DNA from: a virus
Reading direction: 5' to 3' (one strand)
Virus record (IMG/VR): IMGVR_UViG_3300025759_000191
Location: 1-42,672 of that record
Length of the DNA stretch: 42,672 nucleotides
In this document: positions 1,893 through 39,556 of the stretch, piece by piece
Position numbering within the stretch: the first letter of the stretch is position 1
How the letters are laid out: the number at the start of each line of letters is the position of its first letter
Position numbers and translations under genes: made by a program
Notes under the pieces: model-generated
Told to the model about the DNA's origin: nothing
Seen by the model: only the letters and a program-made list of their open reading frames with translations
Database searches by the model: none

Positions 1893-2322
1893 CGATCACT
1901 TGCTGGCTGTCAGCATCAAAATGGATAGTATCGCCCATGCCGAAAACAGGATGATAATCCTTTGTGTTGCTCCATGCTGTCACCTGGCCGCCGCTTGTTA
2001 GCACCTCGCCTGCATCGGTTAGCATGCCCATCTCGCCGCTCTTGAGCATGTTAATTCGCTCCATCACATCGGCTTTTAATTCCTTGCGGCCCTTGTCCTT
2101 AAAACGGCCTATCCGGAGATAGGCCAAATCAATTGAAAGATCCTTAGCAGTCAAATTGTTTGATGAAAATGGCACTGTATAGGTTGATGCCAACATCCCA
2201 TCAAGTTCATTTTCGGCATAAACAATGTAAGCGCTCCCCACTTCTGTAGATCCATCCTTGCTGTCATTAGCTAGCTGCCTATATCGATCCACCAAATCAT
2301 CATAAGTTATATAACGCCCCAA
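1861..2322 (-). CDS. Head-tail connector, DUF1320 / Mu gp36-like
   Basis: This 153-residue protein starts MGRYITYDDLVDRYR. It has a central helical part with IDLAYLRIGR and VMERINMLKSGEMGM, as in DUF1320 (Mu gp36) proteins placed at the neck. It is encoded immediately after the large glycosyltransferase gene (12-bp gap) and overlaps the gpG-like gene by 32 bp. The family role as an adaptor or head completion protein is inferred from conserved gene order. Confidence 0.75.
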   Translation of the reverse strand: MGRYITYDDLVDRYRQLANDSKDGSTEVGSAYIVYAENELDGMLASTYTVPFSSNNLTAKDLSIDLAYLRIGRFKDKGRKELKADVMERINMLKSGEMGMLTDAGEVLTSGGQVTAWSNTKDYHPVFGMGDTIHFDADSQQVIDEENDRGRYY

Positions 2323-2334
2323 GCTACACCCCCA

Positions 2335-5241
2335 TCAATACCATGGCGAATCAAAGTTTTCGGTTTTAACTTCCATGATTTTATTAAAGAACATATTGAT
2401 ATGCTCTTTATTAAGCCAGCGCCCGCCGACCTCTTTTTTGTCTGTTAAAGTAGGATCTCCATGCTTGCTGAAATCTACTTTAAATGATGCCTTTATACCT
2501 CGATCACAAACAACATTTAAAAAGCTGTAGTAATCCATAGCATCAACAGCCATTCTGATCTCGCCAGCCTCTACCAACTCAACAAACAGCCGGTTAGCCT
2601 CATCTGATCTTTCCAGCCTAACATCAAAAGGGCAATGGCCGCGCTCTAAATCATATTTAGTTTGCTGCGCTAAATCGCGTATCCATAGATATTTACCGAG
2701 CGTTCGCTCTGGATGCTTCTCCCGATCACGCCGCATCAAGTCGCAATTTCTAGTGAATCTATCGCGCCTAACTTGCTCGGTAGTATAGCCGGTATGCATG
2801 ATATCAACATCGCCAATGATGTGAGCGCGGCCAACTTGCTCATTCAGCTTGATTTCGGGGTGTTCGTGAACTACTCCAAAAAACCTGATGCCTTTATTGT
2901 TTCTAAAGAGTCTAAGCGGATAGTCGGTTTTCATCACCCCCAACGGCTCAACGCTGTAATGGTGCTGAGCCATTCCATAGCCGAGGTATTCATTGTTGCG
3001 CAAATATTTCAATATGTTTTTAGGGTCAATAACCTTTTCATCGCAATCGAGCCACAAAACCCAATCGCCGCAGGCTTCCTCTATAGATAGGTTTCTCGCC
3101 TCATCGAAACCGATTTCTAGCGGTGATGGTATAGAAAAGGATTTAAAAGCTATATCAGGGTATTTGTTCGAGAGATGGCTTATTTCATTTAGCGTGCAAT
3201 CTGTAGTAGTTTCATCAATCGCTACAATAACCTCTTGAACTACATCGCAAACGCTTTCAATAGCCTGCTGCATTGTCGCCTCGGCATCTTTGGCGATCAT
3301 GCATAGGCTAACGGTTTGCTTCGGTATCGCTTCAGTTATCTTTCTGTCCATATCGTATTGATGGATAGTGAATTCGCTTTTGGCGGTGTAGTCGTATATG
3401 TAGGAACCTAGCCCGCCCCGACTCGGCGCAATCACGATATTTAAATCATCAAAATCGCTTAGTATCTCTTTAATATCTTTTCTATCGAAGTGGTGCAGGT
3501 GGGCGCGCCATGGCCAGTGCTGCCGGTATCCGACTTGCTCCCATGGGCCATAGGGGGTGGTGATAATTACCTTGCCGCCTGGCTTGGCCTGCCTGGTAAT
3601 AGCGGTTAATAGCTCCACGTAATCGCCAACGTGCTCTACAACTTCAGCGGCTATAACGCAATCGTAATCATCTGCGGGGGTGTCGAATGATATAGACCTT
3701 TCAAAAAAGCAAGCGTTTTTAAGTTCCTCGCTGCTCGCCCAATCTATCGCTTTTTCAACATTGCTTGCGGCAATATCATAGCCAGCGAATCGAATATTTG
3801 GAAACCGCTTTGCTAGATTTATAGTGTAATGCCCATGGGCGCAACCATAATCTAGCACCTTAGATCCTGCCGGTAATTCACCAATGAGCCTAGCCACCGT
3901 TTCAAATCTTAGATTACCATCGAGCGATTCAGGCCCATAATTAACGCCGCGCTCCTTTTCGTATTCGTAATAATCCGCGTAGTGCTGCGCATAATCGGCA
4001 TCACGATAAAACCTATAACACTGCTGATACTCCGCCTCAATGTTTCGTGATATTCGATCTTCTCCAGCGGGCAATACCTCGAAGGCCGGAATATCAGAGT
4101 TATCTATGAAGTGCCTGGCGAGTGCCTGCGGGCTTTTTTTGCATAGCTCAAGCGTTACAACGTCCATAAGTGCGCCCGCTGAATTCATCCAACTATTGCG
4201 GGGGGCGCACTCTAGTTGGCGGTGTGATAGGTTTGGCTTTTTGAGTATGTCGCGTATTGCATCAACAAAGCTATCAATATCCGGCAATCCTTCGCCGTTT
4301 AGCGGCAGCATTACCACGCCGCCATCCTTGGCGGTTTCCGGTATCGCGCCGCAATCGCTCGTTACCATCGGCAAGCCTGCTGCCATACATTCCATAATAG
4401 TAATGCAAGATACTTCTCGAAATTCTTTCGCGCCTGGGCCTGGCGTTGGGTAAACATGTAGATCCATCTGGCGCATCAGATCAGCTAGCTGCTTTTTAGT
4501 AAGCGCACCTATGTTGGTGCAATTGGGTAGCTGCTCGATTCGGCTATCTAAGTAGTTGTAATAATCGTTCATGTGTGCAACAGGGTTGTAGTAGCCGCAA
4601 ACAATCAGTTGAACGTTATCATCAAGCAGGTTTTCCATAATGCCGCCTGGCGCCACTAGATGCTCTAACCCGCGCTCCGGCCTGCTGGAATAAAGCAGAT
4701 ATTTGGTATCTGGCTTTTTCTCTATAGCGTCTATCTCGCCCTCGTATAGAGATAAATCAACACCGTTTTTAATAACGTGGATATAGTTCTTGCTGATGCC
4801 ATATACTTCGCTTACTTGCTCTTTGTGGTATTCGCTCACAACTAAAACGCCGTTAACGTTCCATAGATGGGCGTTCGCGGCTTCCTTGTTGCGATACATG
4901 GCGAGGTCGTGAAGCCACCACAAATTGATTTTGCTAGCGTAGTTATGCGAAAAGGCTTGCGGCGCTCGCTGCATTATCAAAACGTCATGGGGGGTGTTTT
5001 CTGCGTAGAAATGAAATTGATTACCAAGCGGGTGCTGTTCAGACTGTTCGCCAGCAGGAACATATTTTACATTGTCAAATGTTTTTTGTTGCTCGCAACG
5101 TGTAAACATTGTTACATTATGCCCCATTTCGGCCAAACATTTCGCCATGTAGTAAGCTGCCGTTTCGCTGCCGCCCAAGCTTTGCTTGTTGATAGTATCC
5201 CCATCAAACGGCATGCCTAAGCAATTAATAACTATATCCAT
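2335..5241 (-). CDS. Trifunctional GT4 glycosyltransferase - SAM methyltransferase - GT2 glycosyltransferase
   Basis: The 968-residue protein has three enzyme modules. Residues 1 to about 370 form a GT-B/GT4 glycosyltransferase (LGGSETAAYYMAK near the start, YSSRPERGLEHL, then EVSCITIMECMAAGLP containing the E-x7-E signature). About 410-620 form a class I methyltransferase (VLDYGCAHGHY motif I, AAEVVEHVGDY, PGGKVIITTPYG). About 640-860 form a GT2/GT-A domain (VSLCMIAKDAE, FDEARNLSIEEACGDW, WLDCDE as DXD). It probably transfers and methylates sugars. It lies in the capsid/neck operon between the capsid and gp36-like genes, so virion glycosylation is a reasonable inference, but host surface or DNA targets are not excluded. 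Confidence 0.85.
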   Translation of the reverse strand: MDIVINCLGMPFDGDTINKQSLGGSETAAYYMAKCLAEMGHNVTMFTRCEQQKTFDNVKYVPAGEQSEQHPLGNQFHFYAENTPHDVLIMQRAPQAFSHNYASKINLWWLHDLAMYRNKEAANAHLWNVNGVLVVSEYHKEQVSEVYGISKNYIHVIKNGVDLSLYEGEIDAIEKKPDTKYLLYSSRPERGLEHLVAPGGIMENLLDDNVQLIVCGYYNPVAHMNDYYNYLDSRIEQLPNCTNIGALTKKQLADLMRQMDLHVYPTPGPGAKEFREVSCITIMECMAAGLPMVTSDCGAIPETAKDGGVVMLPLNGEGLPDIDSFVDAIRDILKKPNLSHRQLECAPRNSWMNSAGALMDVVTLELCKKSPQALARHFIDNSDIPAFEVLPAGEDRISRNIEAEYQQCYRFYRDADYAQHYADYYEYEKERGVNYGPESLDGNLRFETVARLIGELPAGSKVLDYGCAHGHYTINLAKRFPNIRFAGYDIAASNVEKAIDWASSEELKNACFFERSISFDTPADDYDCVIAAEVVEHVGDYVELLTAITRQAKPGGKVIITTPYGPWEQVGYRQHWPWRAHLHHFDRKDIKEILSDFDDLNIVIAPSRGGLGSYIYDYTAKSEFTIHQYDMDRKITEAIPKQTVSLCMIAKDAEATMQQAIESVCDVVQEVIVAIDETTTDCTLNEISHLSNKYPDIAFKSFSIPSPLEIGFDEARNLSIEEACGDWVLWLDCDEKVIDPKNILKYLRNNEYLGYGMAQHHYSVEPLGVMKTDYPLRLFRNNKGIRFFGVVHEHPEIKLNEQVGRAHIIGDVDIMHTGYTTEQVRRDRFTRNCDLMRRDREKHPERTLGKYLWIRDLAQQTKYDLERGHCPFDVRLERSDEANRLFVELVEAGEIRMAVDAMDYYSFLNVVCDRGIKASFKVDFSKHGDPTLTDKKEVGGRWLNKEHINMFFNKIMEVKTENFDSPWY

Positions 5242-7996: not shown

Positions 7997-8695
7997 TTAA
8001 ACAGCCTCCGCTAATGGTATTCTGACGCTTGAATCGTAATGACACGATTTACATAATTCATATGGCTTTACTGATATTTTTGATAGATCATCATAAACAT
8101 TTCCTATAACACCCGCGCCAGTTGAATCAAATGAACAGGTTGTTACCCTTCCATCTGATAATACCATAGATTGCCCCATATTCAACCACGCGCATTCTCT
8201 ACCCTTATGTTCACTCGACACATGCCAATCAACCTGGCCCGCCCAATCGACTGCATTTGTAGCAGGATCTGAACTAGAGCCAGCATAACAGCCCGCCTGC
8301 CTTAATATCTCGATAGCTGGCCCCGCCATTTCTGGACGGTGCAAACTAACGAACGCCGCGCAACGATACTTAAACAAATACTCTGCTATCTGCGGTTGTT
8401 TAACAATCTCTATACCGTTCGTAGCAATTACAAGCGGCAAATCTGGAAGGGCTTCACGAACTATTTCTAAATAGTATTCAAGGTTAGGGTGTATCGTGCT
8501 TTCGCCTATACCGGCCAGATTCAACGATTTTTGCGCGCCTTGATCGCTGAAATATTTAACCCACTTAATAGCTCTACAAAAGGTTGTATAATCCATATCA
8601 ATTTTAGGGCGGGTCATACTGGGATGCACGCAATAACGGCACTTTAAATTACAGCGTGAAGTGACCTCTATTTGGTGTATCTCTCTTATCTTCAT
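7997..8695 (-). CDS. Radical SAM enzyme with C-terminal Cys motif
   Basis: This 232-residue protein opens with IEVTSRCNLKCRYCVHPSM. The canonical CxxxCxxC (C15, C19, C22) binds the 4Fe-4S cluster that cleaves S-adenosylmethionine. SLNLAGIGEST is the GGE-like SAM-binding segment. Near the C terminus, TTCSFDSTGAGVIGNV and LCKSCHYDSS supply extra cysteines like a shortened SPASM/Twitch auxiliary cluster region. Such enzymes often modify peptides or proteins. The start overlaps the portal-MuF stop by ATGA and its stop is 1 bp from the protease gene, so it is translated with the head genes. The substrate is unknown. A capsid protein is a plausible target. Confidence 0.85.
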   Translation of the reverse strand: MKIREIHQIEVTSRCNLKCRYCVHPSMTRPKIDMDYTTFCRAIKWVKYFSDQGAQKSLNLAGIGESTIHPNLEYYLEIVREALPDLPLVIATNGIEIVKQPQIAEYLFKYRCAAFVSLHRPEMAGPAIEILRQAGCYAGSSSDPATNAVDWAGQVDWHVSSEHKGRECAWLNMGQSMVLSDGRVTTCSFDSTGAGVIGNVYDDLSKISVKPYELCKSCHYDSSVRIPLAEAV

Positions 8696-11600
8696 TTAAA
8701 CCCTTGCAATGGTTGTAATGTTGGCTCTCCGCCTTCCTCGAAATCATCCATATCTACAACAGTAACGGGTATTAAAAGCGAGCGGCAGTTGTGGACCAAT
8801 ACGTTACTTGCAATGTATGTTTCATCATCTTTAACAGCAAGGTTGTAGACCCTTCCTTGATATGGTATAACGGCAATTGACTTGATTGAAGAACTAAACC
8901 AAGAGGTGTTATTATGCTTACGGTTGAAACTGTTAAAACTATTATTGCTGAAAGGCATTTCGGGGAGGGTGTCAGCATCCGCGCTATTGAGCGGGAAATG
9001 GGGCTTGGAAAAACCACCCTTTCGGGTTTCTGCAAAAGAAACGGCATCAAGACTAGAACCCAAAGCCAGGGCGCCAGCCTTCACGCCAAAACCATGGCTA
9101 GAAAATCCGGCGACACACATTGGACTAAAACCAACCCTGAAGCGGCTAAAAAGGCTGCCAAGAAAAGCAGCAAGCGAATGCTTAAAGAAAACCCCATGAT
9201 GAAGAGTAGAAATATCGAAAAATCTGCTCAAACGCGATCCAAGACCTACAGGACCAATCCCACCATTCACGAATCTACTTTGTGTAGGTTCTTCGATGAC
9301 GCTGGGGTTGATTACAGTTTCCAAGTTCCCGTCGATAGCTATATCATGGATTTCCTTATTGGCTCCGTCAACCTTGAACTTGATGGAAGAGGACACGCCG
9401 AAAGAAGAGCTATGGACATCATAAGAGATCAGAGGCTCATCGACAAGGGGCTTACAGTTCTGCGCGTCGCTCAAGACTCCTTGTGCAACTACAGAGCCGC
9501 ATCCGTATGGCAGCTCTCCCCACTCTTCGGTGCGCTGGAATATGTTATCCCCAGCCTTAATCTCATCTGCCCTAAACCAGCCATTGGCGGTAAGTATAGG
9601 GTGCTCATCCGTGACAAGGAGAATGTCTCCGGTACTTATTTCAAGCTTAATAATTGATTTTGTATCGTTTCTCTTACCCATAACAGCGTATACAGGCATA
9701 TATCGATTGTTATGGGTAAGAACTCTGTCACCAACCCTAATATCTTCTATAGGTACAAGTCCGCGCTCCGAATTAATTAACTCGCCTTCTGCAATCGCGT
9801 TAAAATGATTGGGCGGTTTATATTGCGGATTTTCATCATACCATTGCTTGCTATGGTTCCCTCGGTTTTCTTCGTCAAGATGCCTGCAAATAGGGGTAGT
9901 GCGCGAATCAAGTATGGCGCTATATTCAAACGCCTGAACGAAATCGCCGAGCTTTGGATCAGTAAAATAGCTATGGCGGGCGTTGTTAATGGCGTCAAAG
10001 GTGCTAGTTCTTACAATCGTTCTTAGCCTGGCATCGGGGTTATTGACGTTCAGCGCCTCGCCTAACGAATCCTTAGCCTGATCTAATGTGATCATACCCT
10101 TGGTAGCAAAGGCTGAATAGATCGACTTTTCGATCTCTGGCCATGTCTTATCGTATCGAGCGCCGTTTAGAATCTCTTGCTCTATAATGTTCTCGGCTTC
10201 TGCTGTTAGATTTCCCGCAATCTTGAACGCGGTAATTTTGAAGAAATCGTCAGCGATAAAACCAAGCCGCATAGCATCGGCTTTGAACTCTTTTTGATTG
10301 GCCTGGTTAACCTCTAGCGCGGCATGCTTGGTGCCAAGCCTGACACCCTCCTTTAGCATCGCGTTAGCTATACGGTTAAACTTCTGCTTTTGCTTTGAAT
10401 CGGCTTTGACAGCCTTTATATTCGCTGCAACATCCTGACCTATATCGCCGCCGGTTTTGGCTTTGGCAATTAGATCAGCTATAAGGCCATCCATATTTTC
10501 AGCCAGCACGCTTGTAAACTCATCAACAATAGAATCGGAATTTCGAGCAATAACAGCGAAATCAACGCGCCTTTCAGCTTTGGTAAATGCGCCGATTGAT
10601 ATTAATCCTTTTCCCATGACGGTTTCATCGATCGCACCCGCCTGGCGTTCCTCATTTTCTTCAATCTCTTCTTTTCCCGCGCCGATCTGCCCGCCTTCCT
10701 GCTCGCCCTCTGCATTATCACCCCCGCCATTATCCTCAACCTCAACCTCAACGCCAGGCGGGAAGCCCAGCGCATCGCGCACATGCTGCTCATCTTCAAA
10801 ATGCGGCTTCACAACGCTAGCGCCTGCAAGCTCTTTAAACTTATCGATCATTTTGAGCTTTTGCGTTTTAGTAAATTTCTTTAACTGATATTTAGGGTAT
10901 CGACCATCGCCCCAGTTTTTATCACCCAGCTTTCTAAATAGCTGCTCATTAAAAGCATCTTCTAAGCGATCTATATCAGTGGTAAGCGTCTCAAAATAGC
11001 TATCTAGCTGAACCTCCGACTGTGAATAGCTGCCGGTTTGTGTTTGCGGTGTAACGCCAACAAGGTTTGGCACTAACAACGCCATAGCGATTCCAAAGTT
11101 GTAATCCTCTATAGCCTCCTTAAATGCCACCTGATTGGATGGGTAATCGCTTTCAAAATCGTAGCCGCTCGGCAGTATTATTCCGGTTGATCCATTAATA
11201 TTATCTAGTATATTTTGCAGAGCTAGATAGTTAGGCGTGCCAGCGTTTAGTGAGGTTCCTTTTCCTGGCGTAACGGTACGAACGCCGCTCGCGTGCTTTT
11301 CCAACCACATATTACGAAACTTAACGACATAATCTTTGCTGAACCATGAGCGATAAGCTTCATTTAGTTCGCTTTGGCCGTAATGCTCATCTATATCGGG
11401 GTTAACGACGAAATGAATAAACTTTTTATGATCTATTTTGATTTCGCGTCCTGCGATCTTTTGCACCACTTCTTTGATATTACCGTGAACATCTACTTTA
11501 AATGCAAATGTATCAAACGGGCGTAGCTTTAGATTCTCTAATCCTATCCAGGTAGAGCCATCAACCTCGATCTTATTAGTGATAATTTCAGTCATCGAGA

Positions 11601-11922
11601 AGCCATACTTAATAGCAGATAAAACGCCCTTGACTTTATCTGTCCAGCTTCCTTTGATCTGTTTAACTGTTTCTTCAAATACCTTTATTCTCTCTTCTCG
11701 CTGATCATCCGTTAGCGTATCGTCATCAAGCACAAATTCATGTTGCCTAGAAATAATCGAATCACCGCGAAACTTAACAACCGCCTTGACTTGCTCATCG
11801 GTTAGCATCTTTTTATAGATATGAGCACCTTTGCGATTGATGAGCGCGTCAGGGTTGTATTTCTCGAAATCGCGCCCCGTATAAAGTAGGCTGGCTTCGC
11901 TGTATGCTATCTCTCTACCCAT
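8692..11922 (-). CDS. Portal (DUF935) - MuF head morphogenesis fusion interrupted by an intein
   Basis: The precursor is 1,076 residues. Residues 1 to about 390 are a DUF935/Mu gp29-type portal (SAIKYGFSMTEII, LKLRPFDTFAFK, VNPDIDEHYGQSEL). After an acidic linker (about 395-425), residues of about 430-740 resemble MuF/gpF, with RTIVRTSTFDAINNARH, SAILDSRTTPICRHLD and the terminal motif PPNHFN/CRSLL. This motif is split by an intein (residues 709-1045), so the spliced product would be 739 residues. The portal is the DNA gate of the head, and MuF proteins are minor head proteins attached to it. The stop overlaps the radical SAM start (ATGA). Splicing itself is inferred. Confidence 0.9.
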   Translation of the reverse strand: MGREIAYSEASLLYTGRDFEKYNPDALINRKGAHIYKKMLTDEQVKAVVKFRGDSIISRQHEFVLDDDTLTDDQREERIKVFEETVKQIKGSWTDKVKGVLSAIKYGFSMTEIITNKIEVDGSTWIGLENLKLRPFDTFAFKVDVHGNIKEVVQKIAGREIKIDHKKFIHFVVNPDIDEHYGQSELNEAYRSWFSKDYVVKFRNMWLEKHASGVRTVTPGKGTSLNAGTPNYLALQNILDNINGSTGIILPSGYDFESDYPSNQVAFKEAIEDYNFGIAMALLVPNLVGVTPQTQTGSYSQSEVQLDSYFETLTTDIDRLEDAFNEQLFRKLGDKNWGDGRYPKYQLKKFTKTQKLKMIDKFKELAGASVVKPHFEDEQHVRDALGFPPGVEVEVEDNGGGDNAEGEQEGGQIGAGKEEIEENEERQAGAIDETVMGKGLISIGAFTKAERRVDFAVIARNSDSIVDEFTSVLAENMDGLIADLIAKAKTGGDIGQDVAANIKAVKADSKQKQKFNRIANAMLKEGVRLGTKHAALEVNQANQKEFKADAMRLGFIADDFFKITAFKIAGNLTAEAENIIEQEILNGARYDKTWPEIEKSIYSAFATKGMITLDQAKDSLGEALNVNNPDARLRTIVRTSTFDAINNARHSYFTDPKLGDFVQAFEYSAILDSRTTPICRHLDEENRGNHSKQWYDENPQYKPPNHFNAIAEGELINSERGLVPIEDIRVGDRVLTHNNRYMPVYAVMGKRNDTKSIIKLEISTGDILLVTDEHPILTANGWFRADEIKAGDNIFQRTEEWGELPYGCGSVVAQGVLSDAQNCKPLVDEPLISYDVHSSSFGVSSSIKFKVDGANKEIHDIAIDGNLETVINPSVIEEPTQSRFVNGGIGPVGLGSRLSRFFDISTLHHGVFFKHSLAAFLGSLFSRFRVGFSPMCVAGFSSHGFGVKAGALALGSSLDAVSFAETRKGGFSKPHFPLNSADADTLPEMPFSNNSFNSFNRKHNNTSWFSSSIKSIAVIPYQGRVYNLAVKDDETYIASNVLVHNCRSLLIPVTVVDMDDFEEGGEPTLQPLQGFK
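8788..9798 (-). mobile_element. Intein in the MuF domain (337 residues, Ala1, Cys+1)
   Basis: The insert splits the conserved MuF motif HFN/CRS. Block A is AIAEGELINSERG with VGDRVL. Block B is LLVTDEHPILTANGW with T63 and H66 (intein numbering). Block F/G is RVYNLAVKDDETYIA...VLVHN, followed by the extein Cys. The splicing domain is therefore complete (about residues 1-100 and 295-337). Position 1 is Ala and not Cys or Ser, as in class 2-like inteins, in which the +1 Cys attacks directly. The middle (about residues 100-290) has no DOD or HNH endonuclease. Its Ser/Phe/Gly-rich sequence is the antisense of an endonuclease gene on the plus strand. Confidence 0.9.
8914..9657 (+). CDS. EDxHD (Vsr-like) homing endonuclease encoded antisense to the intein
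   Basis: This 247-residue protein is encoded entirely within the intein DNA on the opposite strand. The start ATG has AAGAGGTG (8901-8908) at good spacing. Residues 1-45 look like a helix-turn-helix (SIRAIEREMGLGKTTLSGFC). Residues of about 60-118 are basic with an ENPMMKSRN segment typical of homing endonuclease DNA-binding arms. Residues 118-190 form a Vsr-like nuclease core with E120 (IHESTLCRFF), D146 (YIMDFLI), E155-L-D157-G-x-x-H161 and D172 (RDQRL), the EDxHD pattern. It should cut intein-less MuF alleles to drive homing. None of its 20 Leu and 19 Ser codons is TTA, CTA or TCA. Confidence 0.88.
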   Translation: MLTVETVKTIIAERHFGEGVSIRAIEREMGLGKTTLSGFCKRNGIKTRTQSQGASLHAKTMARKSGDTHWTKTNPEAAKKAAKKSSKRMLKENPMMKSRNIEKSAQTRSKTYRTNPTIHESTLCRFFDDAGVDYSFQVPVDSYIMDFLIGSVNLELDGRGHAERRAMDIIRDQRLIDKGLTVLRVAQDSLCNYRAASVWQLSPLFGALEYVIPSLNLICPKPAIGGKYRVLIRDKENVSGTYFKLNN

Positions 11923-13737: not shown

Positions 13738-14967
13738 TCAAGCAGCCTCCCGTTTACCTTTTAATTCCTGGTAGGTTTCGCCAGTTGATTCAAGCGTTGC
13801 CTGTTTGCCGGTGAAATCCTGCCAGCGGTTTATGATTACATCGCAGTATTTTTCATCTAGCTCCATCATAAAGCAATTGCGGTTTGTCTTTTCGCAAGCG
13901 ATCACGGTTGAGCCGCTGCCGCCAAATAAATCAAAGACGTTGGATCGCTTATTGCTTCCTATGTTTATCTGGTTTTCAAGCATAGCTACGGGTTTCATAG
14001 TGGGGTGGTACCCCTCTTTTTCTCTCGGAAACTCAAGGCATTTAGAATAATCAACACCTTTGATTCCTCCATTGAAAATACCCGACCTTCTGAAAAGCAA
14101 CAGGTATTCGATATCCGGTCTATGGCTCCCACCAATAGGTATAGCGTTAGGTTTTTTCCAAACTAACAAATTGAAAGCGTATTTATTATCTTTTGCCCAA
14201 GACAAGTATTCAGGAAGCAAATCTTTTGATGTAAAAATATATGCGTTCATTGTTTTATTAAATAATATCGGCAGCACTTGCAAAAACTCTGCTGGGTTAA
14301 AATTACAAAGATGCTCTATATCACCAGACTGTTTTTCAAGTGCCTTCCCTATCTCGCCTTTGAACCCACCCTTAGTTTCCTGATTGTAAGTCGGATCAGT
14401 AAAAACCATATCTGCCTTCTTGCCATCCATCAAACTTTCAACCGCATCAATAGACGTACTATCCCCGCACATCAACCTATGATTACCTAAAACCCAAATA
14501 TCACCGCTAACCGTTACCGCCTGTTCAGGTATCTCCGGTATATCATCATCACCCGTTAGCCCTTCAACTGGTTCAGTATCATCTAGTAAGCCATCAATAA
14601 AGCCAGTATCAAACCCCAATAGATCAGTATCAAAATCTAACTCAATCAGGTTGTTAACTTCCAGCTTTAACTTGTCCAAGTCCCAATCAGCATTTAACGC
14701 TAATTGATTATCAGCGATAACATAGGCTTTCTTCTGCGCCTCTGTAAGCCCTTCAGCCCGCACGAATGGAATAGATTCAAGCCCTAGCTTTTTAGCTGCC
14801 ATCACTCGACCATGGCCAGCTATAAGCCCGTTTTGCTCATCAATAATAACGGGATTCAAAAATCCAAATTCTTTGATGCTTGATGCAATTTGAATAACCT
14901 GTTCTTCGCTATGAGTTCGTGAATTATTGGCATAAGGTATCAAATCATTAACCGCTATTTCGTCCAT
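13738..14967 (-). CDS. ParB-like / DNA adenine-type (N6/N4) methyltransferase fusion
   Basis: Translation most likely starts at ATG 14965-14967 (a GTG lies one codon before), giving 409 residues. Residues 1 to about 125 are ParB/Srx-like (LIPYANNSRTHSEEQVIQIA, GLIAGHGRVMAAKKLGL). The rest is a beta-class amino-methyltransferase with motif IV VFTDPTYNQE and motif I FDLFGGSGSTVIACE followed by FMMELDEKYCDVIINRW. The usual D-P-P-Y reads D-P-T-Y here. Such genes next to terminase are common in phages and methylate phage DNA, perhaps for restriction evasion or packaging control. Activity is uncertain because of the motif change. Confidence 0.85.
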   Translation of the reverse strand: MDEIAVNDLIPYANNSRTHSEEQVIQIASSIKEFGFLNPVIIDEQNGLIAGHGRVMAAKKLGLESIPFVRAEGLTEAQKKAYVIADNQLALNADWDLDKLKLEVNNLIELDFDTDLLGFDTGFIDGLLDDTEPVEGLTGDDDIPEIPEQAVTVSGDIWVLGNHRLMCGDSTSIDAVESLMDGKKADMVFTDPTYNQETKGGFKGEIGKALEKQSGDIEHLCNFNPAEFLQVLPILFNKTMNAYIFTSKDLLPEYLSWAKDNKYAFNLLVWKKPNAIPIGGSHRPDIEYLLLFRRSGIFNGGIKGVDYSKCLEFPREKEGYHPTMKPVAMLENQINIGSNKRSNVFDLFGGSGSTVIACEKTNRNCFMMELDEKYCDVIINRWQDFTGKQATLESTGETYQELKGKREAA

Positions 14968-15275
14968 CACATACGCCTCATAGCTCGTACATCGATATCA
15001 TAAAACGCCGCGTTATCATCGCCAGAATTAACGCTAACCTCAAGGTTGTAGGTTAGGCCCACCAAATCAAGGCTACTTGTTAGCGTGCCTTGATAGGTGC
15101 CGCTGCTTTGGTGCGTTAACGTTAACGGCCATGTTTGCCCACTAACGTTAGTTCCTGACATAGTTTTCAGCGTTGCTAAAACAGTTGCGTCGGTTGTATA
15201 GCTCGAATCAGACAAATCTATCAGATCGGATAGTTTTAATAGATTGCCGTTATCTATATATATGGGTTTAGCCAT
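14967..15275 (-). CDS. Small beta-rich virion-region protein
   Basis: This 102-residue protein starts MAKPIYIDNGNLLKLSDLID and shows Thr/Ser-rich beta segments (QTWPLTLTHQSSGTYQGTL). It ends DVRAMRRM and overlaps the methyltransferase start (ATG followed by TGA). It follows a group of appendage-like structural genes. The pattern resembles small phage proteins with an Ig-like or jelly-roll fold. Function is not recognised. Confidence 0.65.
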   Translation of the reverse strand: MAKPIYIDNGNLLKLSDLIDLSDSSYTTDATVLATLKTMSGTNVSGQTWPLTLTHQSSGTYQGTLTSSLDLVGLTYNLEVSVNSGDDNAAFYDIDVRAMRRM

Positions 15276-37466: not shown

Positions 37467-39556
37467 ACCGCTTGGCGCTCCACAAAGTTTGGCCTAACAC
37501 CTTCGTTGTCAAGCTCATTGAACGCCTGAATAATCGGGCCAGCAACCACCTCTTTCATTTCGTTCGCATCAAGCGCTAGCAGAGAATCTGCGCTTGTTGC
37601 GTTCGGTAGAACCTCAACAATAAGCGTTTCGATGGTTATGGTAGTGCCGCCATTGGTTATGGTGTCGCCATTAGTTGTGGTGATACCATCGTTCGCCGCG
37701 CCAGGTGCAGAGCCTTGAGAGTTTAAGAAGCTGGTTAAATCGGTATTTTGTCGGGGTGATAATACCCGCTCGCCTTTATCTAAAAGAAAGGTTGACTCTC
37801 TGGGAACGTTATCAAGCCCGCCATGAGCCACCCCGCCAAGCGTACCCGCTCCAGTCGCCGCAGATGCCGCCATACCTGCCAAGCCTGCCGCTAATGATGC
37901 AGCCGCTACCGCTGGAGCTAGCGCTGGCCCAACTATGGGGATAGCTGCGGTTGCTGCAAATGCGTTACCGTATATTGTACCTCCAATCCTTGCGCCCTCT
38001 GATGTACCCATCAGCTTAGATGTAATTAGGTGCTGAATGCCGACCTTGACAAACATCGCCACCATTTCAGTTAGCACTTGTTTAGATAGGTTTCTCAATG
38101 AGTCGGTTAAGCTTTTGCCGCTTACTATTGCGCTAGCAAATGATTTGCTGAAACCGTCAACTGTGAATTTCATCAAGCCCGCTAGCTGCTTTGATGCGGT
38201 TTCGTTCATGGTTCCAAGATCTTTATAAAATAAATTCCACCCCTCGCCCAATATGCTAATCATGTCTAGCGTGTTTTCAGTGGTGCCGGTGTTAGAATCC
38301 TTTATGGATTCAGCCGCCGCCGCGCTCACCTCGCGCATGCGCTCAACATTCTCTACTCCTGCATTAAAGGCATCTTCTACGCTAAACTTAAAGCCATCGA
38401 GCGACCCGCCGAGGCTTTCTATGGCCTCTGTACCGCTTGCCGTTATTACTGTGAATCCTTTTGATGCTTCATTCTCTATGTTCTGCATGGCGTCAGCGAA
38501 TGCAGCGCCCATGGCTTCAGAAAAACCCTGAGCGGGGTTGTCTGAAAATATATTGGCAATCGCATTGAATGCCCATTCTCCAAATCTGCTAACTATATCC
38601 GTAGCGCCATTAAATGCGGCATCAAAAACCCTCACTATCATTTGCCCCATCTGCTGTAGTGCAATGGCGGTGTTTTCAGCCATTCCTTTAAGGCCGTTAG
38701 AGAAGGTATTAAATACATCACCCCCTGATAGAAAATCAATTAGATTTGTAGCGAACGTTTTCAAAACATTATGCATACCGGCAAAAATATTAATTGACGT
38801 TCTAAGCATGTTAGCTAGATGCTTTCTTGATTTTGCTACCGCATCAGCGAAACCGTTAGCAAGCGGCGCCAAAAATGGCATTAACTCTTCAGCAATCGCC
38901 ATACCAACGCCTTTAACCGATTTACCCGCCCGCGTCATCGCATCAACCATGTTCGCAGATTTGGCCGCAAGCGATCCAGATATAGTCACCCCCAGGAAAT
39001 CAGCATCATTTGCCGCCGCTCGCATGGCATCGCTTCCGCCTTTAAGCATTGTCAACATAGCCGTTCCTTCCGAATCAAAAAGCTTGAACGATAGCCGCAA
39101 CTGGTCAGCGGGGTCTTTTACGCCCTCCATAGCATCGGCCAGCTTCGCCATTTTATCATCCAGATTCAACCGCTTAAATTCGGCGGCATTAATGCCGAGC
39201 TCTTTTAATGCTGGCGCGGCTTCACCCATACCCTTGGCGGCTTCAGCAACTCGACGCGTAGACCTCTGAACGGCCATGTTGAATGTTTCCGTGCTAATTC
39301 CGGCAAGATCAGCCGCGTGCTGGGTGCGCGTTAACTCTTCAGTGGTCAGCCCTAGACGAATAGCAAACTTTCCTTGCCTGTCAACGGACGCCGCTACAGC
39401 AGTAGTAAACCCAACAACAGCCGCGCCTGTGCCCGCTATAGCTGTAGATGCTTTCAAGGCTGTCTTAGCAAAATCTTTTAATGATGCGCTAGACTTGCCC
39501 AGCTTCTTGCTAGCCCTATCGTTCGCATCAATTATAAATTCAATTTTATTTGCCAT
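37463..39556 (-). CDS. Tail tape measure protein
   Basis: This 697-residue protein has a long helical N-terminal half, starting with RASKKLGKSSASLKDFAKTA, with Ala-rich helices typical of tape measures. The central region is hydrophobic (IPIVGPALAPAVAAASLAAG, LAGMAASAATGAGTLGGVAH). The C-terminal part has LDKGERVLSP, common at tape-measure ends. It sets tail length. By the usual 1.5 A per residue its tail would be about 100 nm. It overlaps the frameshifted chaperone end by 11 bp. Confidence 0.9.
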   Translation of the reverse strand: MANKIEFIIDANDRASKKLGKSSASLKDFAKTALKASTAIAGTGAAVVGFTTAVAASVDRQGKFAIRLGLTTEELTRTQHAADLAGISTETFNMAVQRSTRRVAEAAKGMGEAAPALKELGINAAEFKRLNLDDKMAKLADAMEGVKDPADQLRLSFKLFDSEGTAMLTMLKGGSDAMRAAANDADFLGVTISGSLAAKSANMVDAMTRAGKSVKGVGMAIAEELMPFLAPLANGFADAVAKSRKHLANMLRTSINIFAGMHNVLKTFATNLIDFLSGGDVFNTFSNGLKGMAENTAIALQQMGQMIVRVFDAAFNGATDIVSRFGEWAFNAIANIFSDNPAQGFSEAMGAAFADAMQNIENEASKGFTVITASGTEAIESLGGSLDGFKFSVEDAFNAGVENVERMREVSAAAAESIKDSNTGTTENTLDMISILGEGWNLFYKDLGTMNETASKQLAGLMKFTVDGFSKSFASAIVSGKSLTDSLRNLSKQVLTEMVAMFVKVGIQHLITSKLMGTSEGARIGGTIYGNAFAATAAIPIVGPALAPAVAAASLAAGLAGMAASAATGAGTLGGVAHGGLDNVPRESTFLLDKGERVLSPRQNTDLTSFLNSQGSAPGAANDGITTTNGDTITNGGTTITIETLIVEVLPNATSADSLLALDANEMKEVVAGPIIQAFNELDNEGVRPNFVERQAV

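Follow-up and report, generated by a model that had tools for sequence, protein, structure and literature searches.

The portal-MuF locus, its intein and the antisense endonuclease

The window, meaning the whole stretch of DNA that was analysed, comprises the 42,672 bases of an IMG/VR virus record. Its minus strand carries a fused portal-MuF gene that was found to be a single unbroken ORF encoding a precursor of 1076 aa, intein included (Table 1). The ORF matched the models Portal_Mu (2.5e-37), Phage_Mu_F (8e-8) and Intein_splicing (8e-12), as well as the PHROG 113 portal family (2.3e-51) and the intein C-terminal model TIGR01443. The continuous minus frame with a 337-residue intein that an earlier note on this DNA had read from the letters was thus borne out. 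The start of a radical SAM protein (7997-8695, minus strand, 1.8e-9) overlaps the portal-MuF stop within the structural gene cluster. Elsewhere in the window, the minus strand encodes a 968-aa protein in which a GT-B-type glycosyltransferase and a methyltransferase are fused to a family 2 glycosyltransferase (2335-5241) and an N6/N4 DNA methylase fused to a ParB-N domain (13738-14970). A 243-codon ORF at 38538-39269 (plus strand), opposite a 697-aa ORF, had no family match and is probably due to chance.

Table 1. Features of the locus and of related phage inteins; coordinates are those of the window unless another record is named.
Feature	Coordinates	Strand	Basis
Host gene, fused portal-MuF protein	8692..11922	-	Portal_Mu, Phage_Mu_F, PHROG 113
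N-extein, portal and MuF, ending ...PPNHFN	9799..11922	-	junction from alignment to empty alleles HPN^CRS
Intein, 337 residues, Ala1...His336-Asn337 (precursor residues 709-1045)	8788..9798	-	splicing-domain and C-terminal models
Intein N-terminal splicing region, residues 1-91; block A; block B T63-D-E-H66	9526..9798	-	modelled as a Hint fold (pLDDT mostly 70-93), similar to the gp41-1 and BIL structures
Intein linker, residues 92-298, disordered in the model; lies opposite the folded part of the endonuclease	8905..9525	-	pLDDT 24-39
Intein C-terminal splicing region, blocks F and G, ...VLVHN	8788..8904	-	C-terminal model, alignment, structure model
C-extein, starting Cys+1-Arg-Ser	8692..8787	-	CRS kept in relatives and empty alleles
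EDxHD/DUF559 homing endonuclease gene, 247 aa	8914..9657	+	DUF559, I-Bth0305I profile and fold
Endonuclease parts: N-terminal HTH-like region; C-terminal Vsr-like nuclease core (E120, D146, E155, D157, H161, D172)			
Shine-Dalgarno-like AAGAGGTG, 5 nt before endonuclease ATG	8901..8908	+	
Same-strand out-of-frame endonuclease ORF	L104 (Vibrio phage CP-T1 gp10) 2183-2932		
Same-strand out-of-frame endonuclease ORF (HNH_3 or DUF559)	L107 2312-2941		
Gordonia antisense ORF	L106 (Gordonia phage Barsten) 2588-3208	-	tblastn similarity to annotated homing endonucleases

The element meets the sequence and fold criteria for an intein, with a Hint fold and blocks A, B, F and G in frame with the host protein, HN|C in all copies and an exact insertion relative to intein-free alleles. 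Empty MuF alleles from more than 20 V. breoganii phages were 88-98% identical, end to end, to the joined exteins of the intein-bearing allele L003 (269 aa in exactly 807 nt), and because of this match the insertion site could be set at HPN^CRS and residue 1 identified as Ala. In nine aligned contiguous copies Ala1, the block B T-x-x-H and His-Asn|Cys+1 were invariant, and the block A-B and F-G regions were recognisable in contiguous copies outside this alignment. Residue 1 was Ala in all contiguous copies examined and Ser in the split copy L091. Ala1, that is, no N-terminal Cys/Ser nucleophile, combined with Cys+1 constitutes a class 2 signature; the class 3 definition was not met, as block F (YNLAV/YNISV) has no conserved Cys (no WCT branch-point Cys). 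Judged by these residues, the intein would be class 2-like (KlbA-like) and not a canonical Cys1 intein, with both splicing and its mechanism inferred.

On the opposite strand, the 247-aa protein matched DUF559 (1.2e-10), and the profile of its family, when compared with the PDB, matched I-Bth0305I, the type member of the EDxHD homing endonucleases (9e-4). Across 14 endonuclease sequences, E120, D146, E155, D157 and D172 were invariant and H161 was kept in at least 90%. The enzyme thereby qualifies as EDxHD, having a Vsr-like nuclease core with conserved E, D, H and D, and homologues whose absence would have refuted the earlier note were in hand. Its proposal of a plus-strand EDxHD endonuclease held, the sequence that it pointed out before the ATG is Shine-Dalgarno-like, and similar motifs were also observed upstream of most related endonuclease starts. 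A scan for an antisense promoter returned no credible candidate, only a weak sigma-70-like site upstream that overlaps the start codon.

The endonuclease gene lies wholly within the intein and occupies 73.6% of its DNA, in agreement with the earlier estimate that about three quarters is read in both directions. Codons of the two frames are in register: position 1 of an endonuclease codon pairs with position 3 of an intein codon, and residue n of the endonuclease lies opposite residue 296-n of the intein. Structures of both products were predicted, as had been suggested. The endonuclease model had a mean pLDDT of 85, and among solved structures Foldseek returned 3r3p (I-Bth0305I; probability 1.00, TM 0.60-0.64 on target) and 3hrl as its best matches. 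The Foldseek E-values were only 0.004-0.006; the sequence profile returned the same two structures. In the intein model, residues 1-91 and 299-337 were confident and formed a Hint fold matching the gp41-1, BIL, class 3 DnaB and RecA inteins, and residues 92-298 were modelled as disordered. The disordered linker is suggestive rather than proven because the alignment behind the intein model was shallow (6 sequences).

This linker faces residues 1-204 of the endonuclease, its folded part. Block B residues T63 and H66 stand opposite R233 and V230 of the endonuclease C-terminal YRVxxR motif, which is missing from the earlier-ending enzymes L009 and L096. Because the folded regions of enzyme and intein are largely staggered, a long overlap is sustainable, and the predicted placement of the folded enzyme mostly opposite an unstructured intein linker would explain how the overlap is eased.

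Recurrence of the layout and maintenance of both frames

A tblastn search of phage genomes with the endonuclease returned three records only, Vibrio phages 1.265.O, 1.266.O and 1.082.O, whose enzymes are 38-40% identical over 96-98%. Each match was antisense to an annotated hint/hedgehog or coiled-coil protein, and in all three phages a single ORF encodes the host protein together with a 341-residue intein, which wholly encloses the endonuclease gene in the same phase. IMG/VR was scanned with the intein N-part and every frame then tested with the endonuclease profile, which yielded the contiguous antisense cases L005, L006 (=L007) and L008; broader enzyme-alignment scans of viral contigs yielded L096, L097, L115, L116 and L120. 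No relatives were obtained from viral contigs with the enzyme as a single protein or with a first alignment, nor any bacterial-genome copy in two enzyme scans of genome contigs, the exact-pattern step probably having been too strict in both cases. A contiguous intein with an antisense EDxHD enzyme was thus present in 11 divergent lineages (the window and 10 others), and codon phase was identical in the contiguous antisense relatives for which it was computed (L115, L116 and L120 were left out). The antisense layout is confirmed as a real, conserved and recurrent phage architecture and not a one-off, the search for it that the earlier note called for having been answered by the three Vibrio phages and eight metagenomic lineages.

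Seven further relatives (L009, L090, L091, L092, L093 (=L010), L109 and L113) carry the same enzyme antisense to an interrupted sense frame. These have two ORFs around the endonuclease and hence fulfil the definition of a fractured gene, which the window and the 10 other contiguous lineages do not. In L090, L091, L092, L093 and L109 both fragments of the split intein, N and C, have retained an overlap with the ends of the antisense endonuclease gene, possibly an intermediate between contiguous inteins and fractured genes.

In this phase, each stop codon in the intein frame reads as TTA, CTA or TCA in the enzyme frame. None of the 410 Leu and Ser codons in the 11 contiguous lineages was of this kind, versus 69 of 296 in the seven split ones; the open intein frame and the absence of these codons are one fact seen from two sides. 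Given the phage's own codon usage and the composition of the enzyme, the probability of such an absence was 5.5e-9 for the window. It spanned 6e-6 to 7e-10 for L002, L003, L006, L008 and L097, each with its own codon usage, and was weak (0.02) for L096. For the high-GC lineage L005 the probability was 0.5, which is uninformative and carries no weight for selection. An open intein frame is very unlikely without selection. The earlier note would have been refuted by close relatives with minus-strand stops, and this condition did not refute it: the frame is open in 11 lineages and interrupted in the seven split relatives, five of them in one supported clade. Between L003 and L004, 8 of the 10 substitutions in the overlap, which are few, fell at endonuclease codon position 3; 4 were non-synonymous for the enzyme and 9 for the intein.

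Inferred mobility of the intein and competing readings

The inteins of L003 and L004 are roughly 98% identical in diverged MuF alleles. Divergence was 2.0% in the N-part, 1.4% in the overlap and 2.2% in the C-part, compared to 8-26% in the adjacent MuF sequence; the low values are not merely due to double coding, since the N- and C-parts are also low relative to MuF. Three variants in the last ~14 nt before the insertion site were common only to these two intein-bearing alleles, and the downstream flank differs from the first codon onward. The three variants are a short co-conversion footprint. This tract, along with the sporadic presence of the intein among close relatives, supports homing indirectly, with cleavage inferred.

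We hold it to be highly probable that the locus is a mobile intein in a phage portal-MuF gene with two functions on opposite strands of the same DNA. Conservation and maintenance of both frames, the exact insertion site, empty alleles, the co-conversion footprint and the predicted folds were established here; splicing, antisense transcription, cleavage and homing are inferred. The minus strand would give rise to a portal-MuF precursor from which the Ala1 intein would excise itself, joining HFN to CRS, probably in a class 2 (KlbA-like) manner where Cys+1 directly attacks the N-terminal junction. The plus strand would be transcribed and translated separately into a free EDxHD endonuclease that may act on co-infecting phages whose MuF alleles lack the intein, cutting near the HPN/CRS codons; repair of the cut allele would copy in the whole intein together with its antisense gene. 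Double coding would be tolerable with the nuclease fold opposite an unstructured linker and intein block B opposite the nuclease C-terminal tail.

The antisense ORF could instead be the relic of a once-functional endonuclease, no longer expressed and conserved only as the complement of the intein frame. In this codon-on-codon phase either strand is a shadow of its complement, the promoter evidence is unconvincing, and some of the enzyme conservation is in fact borrowed, because YRVxxR lies exactly opposite block B (R233/T63, V230/H66). Borrowing does not however extend to E120, D146, E155, D157 and D172, which are kept opposite a disordered linker that imposes no such pattern, nor to the split relatives, where the endonuclease frame is also kept despite a sense strand full of stops. 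The preference of the L003/L004 changes for endonuclease third positions, the endonuclease starts with SD-like motifs that are mostly kept and the recent transfer with co-conversion also speak against a relic, which we regard as unlikely.

Even less probable is that the intein frame is a passenger, its openness incidental, in a host gene that is effectively interrupted, with a Hint domain that only cleaves (BIL-like) or does not splice at all. The nearest profile match of the intein among solved structures is indeed a bacterial intein-like (BIL) domain and position 1 is Ala, not Cys, but KlbA-type class 2 inteins are known to splice with Ala1 and Cys+1. MuF is moreover a conserved structural protein, and in every lineage its C-extein resumes at Cys+1; the nine aligned copies show no variation at Ala1, at the T-x-x-H of block B or at H-N|C, and sense stops are avoided (P down to 7e-10). 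Chance or an assembly artefact can be set aside: long antisense ORFs in this phase are common in high-GC DNA but local GC is about 43-47%, the product resembles I-Bth0305I at the PDB level, chance is excluded by homologues that share the antisense layout, and an assembly error, which would likewise have refuted the earlier note, is excluded by independent isolates and contigs that carry it.

Other overlapping endonucleases and relation to known systems

The other five frames of contiguous inteins were examined systematically for overlapping nucleases. An independent antisense endonuclease with Cys-rich segments and a DUF559/Vsr region was found in an intein that occupies a different site in a Mu-portal fusion (L079:6223-7236, minus strand), and an antisense LAGLIDADG (Pfam match 7e-8) in a portal-MuF intein (L014:1237-4170). 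Same-strand, out-of-frame HNH_3 was observed in L021, L030, L056, L076, L080 and L084 (2e-10 to 6e-18), three of these six inteins being in terminases, and same-strand, out-of-frame DUF559 in the helicase inteins L047 and L058 and in the cultured Vibrio phages CP-T1 gp10 and 104E43.1. In L123, too, an HNH_3 or DUF559 ORF lies on the strand of a contiguous intein but in another frame. Gordonia phages Barsten, SchottB, Nordenberg, Thing3, Sitar and Lennon carry an antisense LAGLIDADG-type ORF in a MuF intein, kept at 91-99.5% in these six; a Pfam search of this ORF gave no match and its identity as an endonuclease rests on tblastn alone. Inteins L034 and L049 also have long antisense ORFs; these matched no family and were dismissed as chance. 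In the sense frame of 41 inteins with long middles, LAGLIDADG_3 was found in frame in 22 and HNH in 4. The premise of the earlier note that known full-length inteins carry their endonuclease in frame is not general, given that same-strand, out-of-frame endonucleases also occur.

In trees built from the enzyme plus the intein, five of the seven split forms fell into one supported clade (99/97), L009 and L113 were unresolved, and contiguous forms were present elsewhere throughout. The trees could not be rooted and the polarity from contiguous to split is therefore inferred, not shown; with the root unknown, they would fit such a transition by accumulation of stops in a dispensable sense linker. 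With the enzyme coded elsewhere, the sense linker would need only to stay open, and stops within it, together with a new start downstream, would create a split intein. We lean, by a small measure, towards a wider proposition: that intein-overlapping endonucleases in another frame or strand (EDxHD, HNH, LAGLIDADG) are a general, repeatedly evolved phage architecture and that the double-coding linker is the route from contiguous to split inteins, that is, to fractured genes. In Salmonella phage S16 (L105, NC_020416, 1796-4522) the annotation divides the helicase uvsW into two pieces separated by a hypothetical gene, which resembles a classic fractured gene carrying a split intein.

No endonuclease antisense within an intein was found described in a literature search, which did not reach a 2025 preprint on actinobacteriophage inteins with 'non-canonical architecture' (10.1101/2025.01.02.630785), known here only as cited in PMC11855218. 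Earlier accounts of the same-strand overlaps, and perhaps of antisense ones in Gordonia phages, may thus exist. The novelty claimed by the earlier note hence survives only as an absence from the literature searched; the arrangement is recurrent and priority is uncertain. If true, it is an unusually clear case of one DNA stretch that encodes a self-splicing element on one strand and the enzyme for its mobility on the other, kept over deep divergence, and it would separate endonuclease expression from that of a late structural gene in a mobile unit of only about 1 kb. The origin of split inteins and fractured genes becomes directly testable, since contiguous and split versions coexist in one family. 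Phage intein endonucleases have been overlooked by annotation pipelines, none being annotated in the Vibrio and Gordonia records examined.

Antisense endonuclease genes are known from group I introns, where, as in the window, the gene runs opposite to its host gene; since introns do not code for protein, double coding is not demanded there. In 2009 Dassa et al. reportedly described fractured genes that combine split inteins with free-standing EDxHD endonucleases, the EDxHD gene lying between intein halves in a phage gene. L009, L090-L093, L109 and L113 are of this kind with the enzyme antisense, whereas in the window host gene and intein stay one ORF and the endonuclease is on the opposite strand of the same bases. 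The intein resembles class 2 inteins such as MjaKlbA (PDB 2jmz; weak profile match, 3e-6) in Ala1, Cys+1 and Hint fold, and differs in its phage MuF host and antisense endonuclease. The enzyme shares its nuclease core, by sequence profile and fold, with I-Bth0305I (PDB 3r3p), which is called a mobile-intron protein in its PDB entry, whereas the window enzyme lies antisense within an intein. Overlapping frames are frequent in actinobacteriophages (PMC11855218), and the nearest published relative is the ShiLan domain, described with the Pacc40 insertion (Arsenault et al. 2025, PMC11855218), a mobile insert in a phage gene with an HNH in another frame of the same strand. In both inserts the host frame stays open while a different frame codes for an endonuclease. 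The window does not meet the ShiLan definition of a same-strand, out-of-frame HNH without a detectable splicing domain, as its endonuclease is on the opposite strand and of the EDxHD type, and its splicing domain is present.
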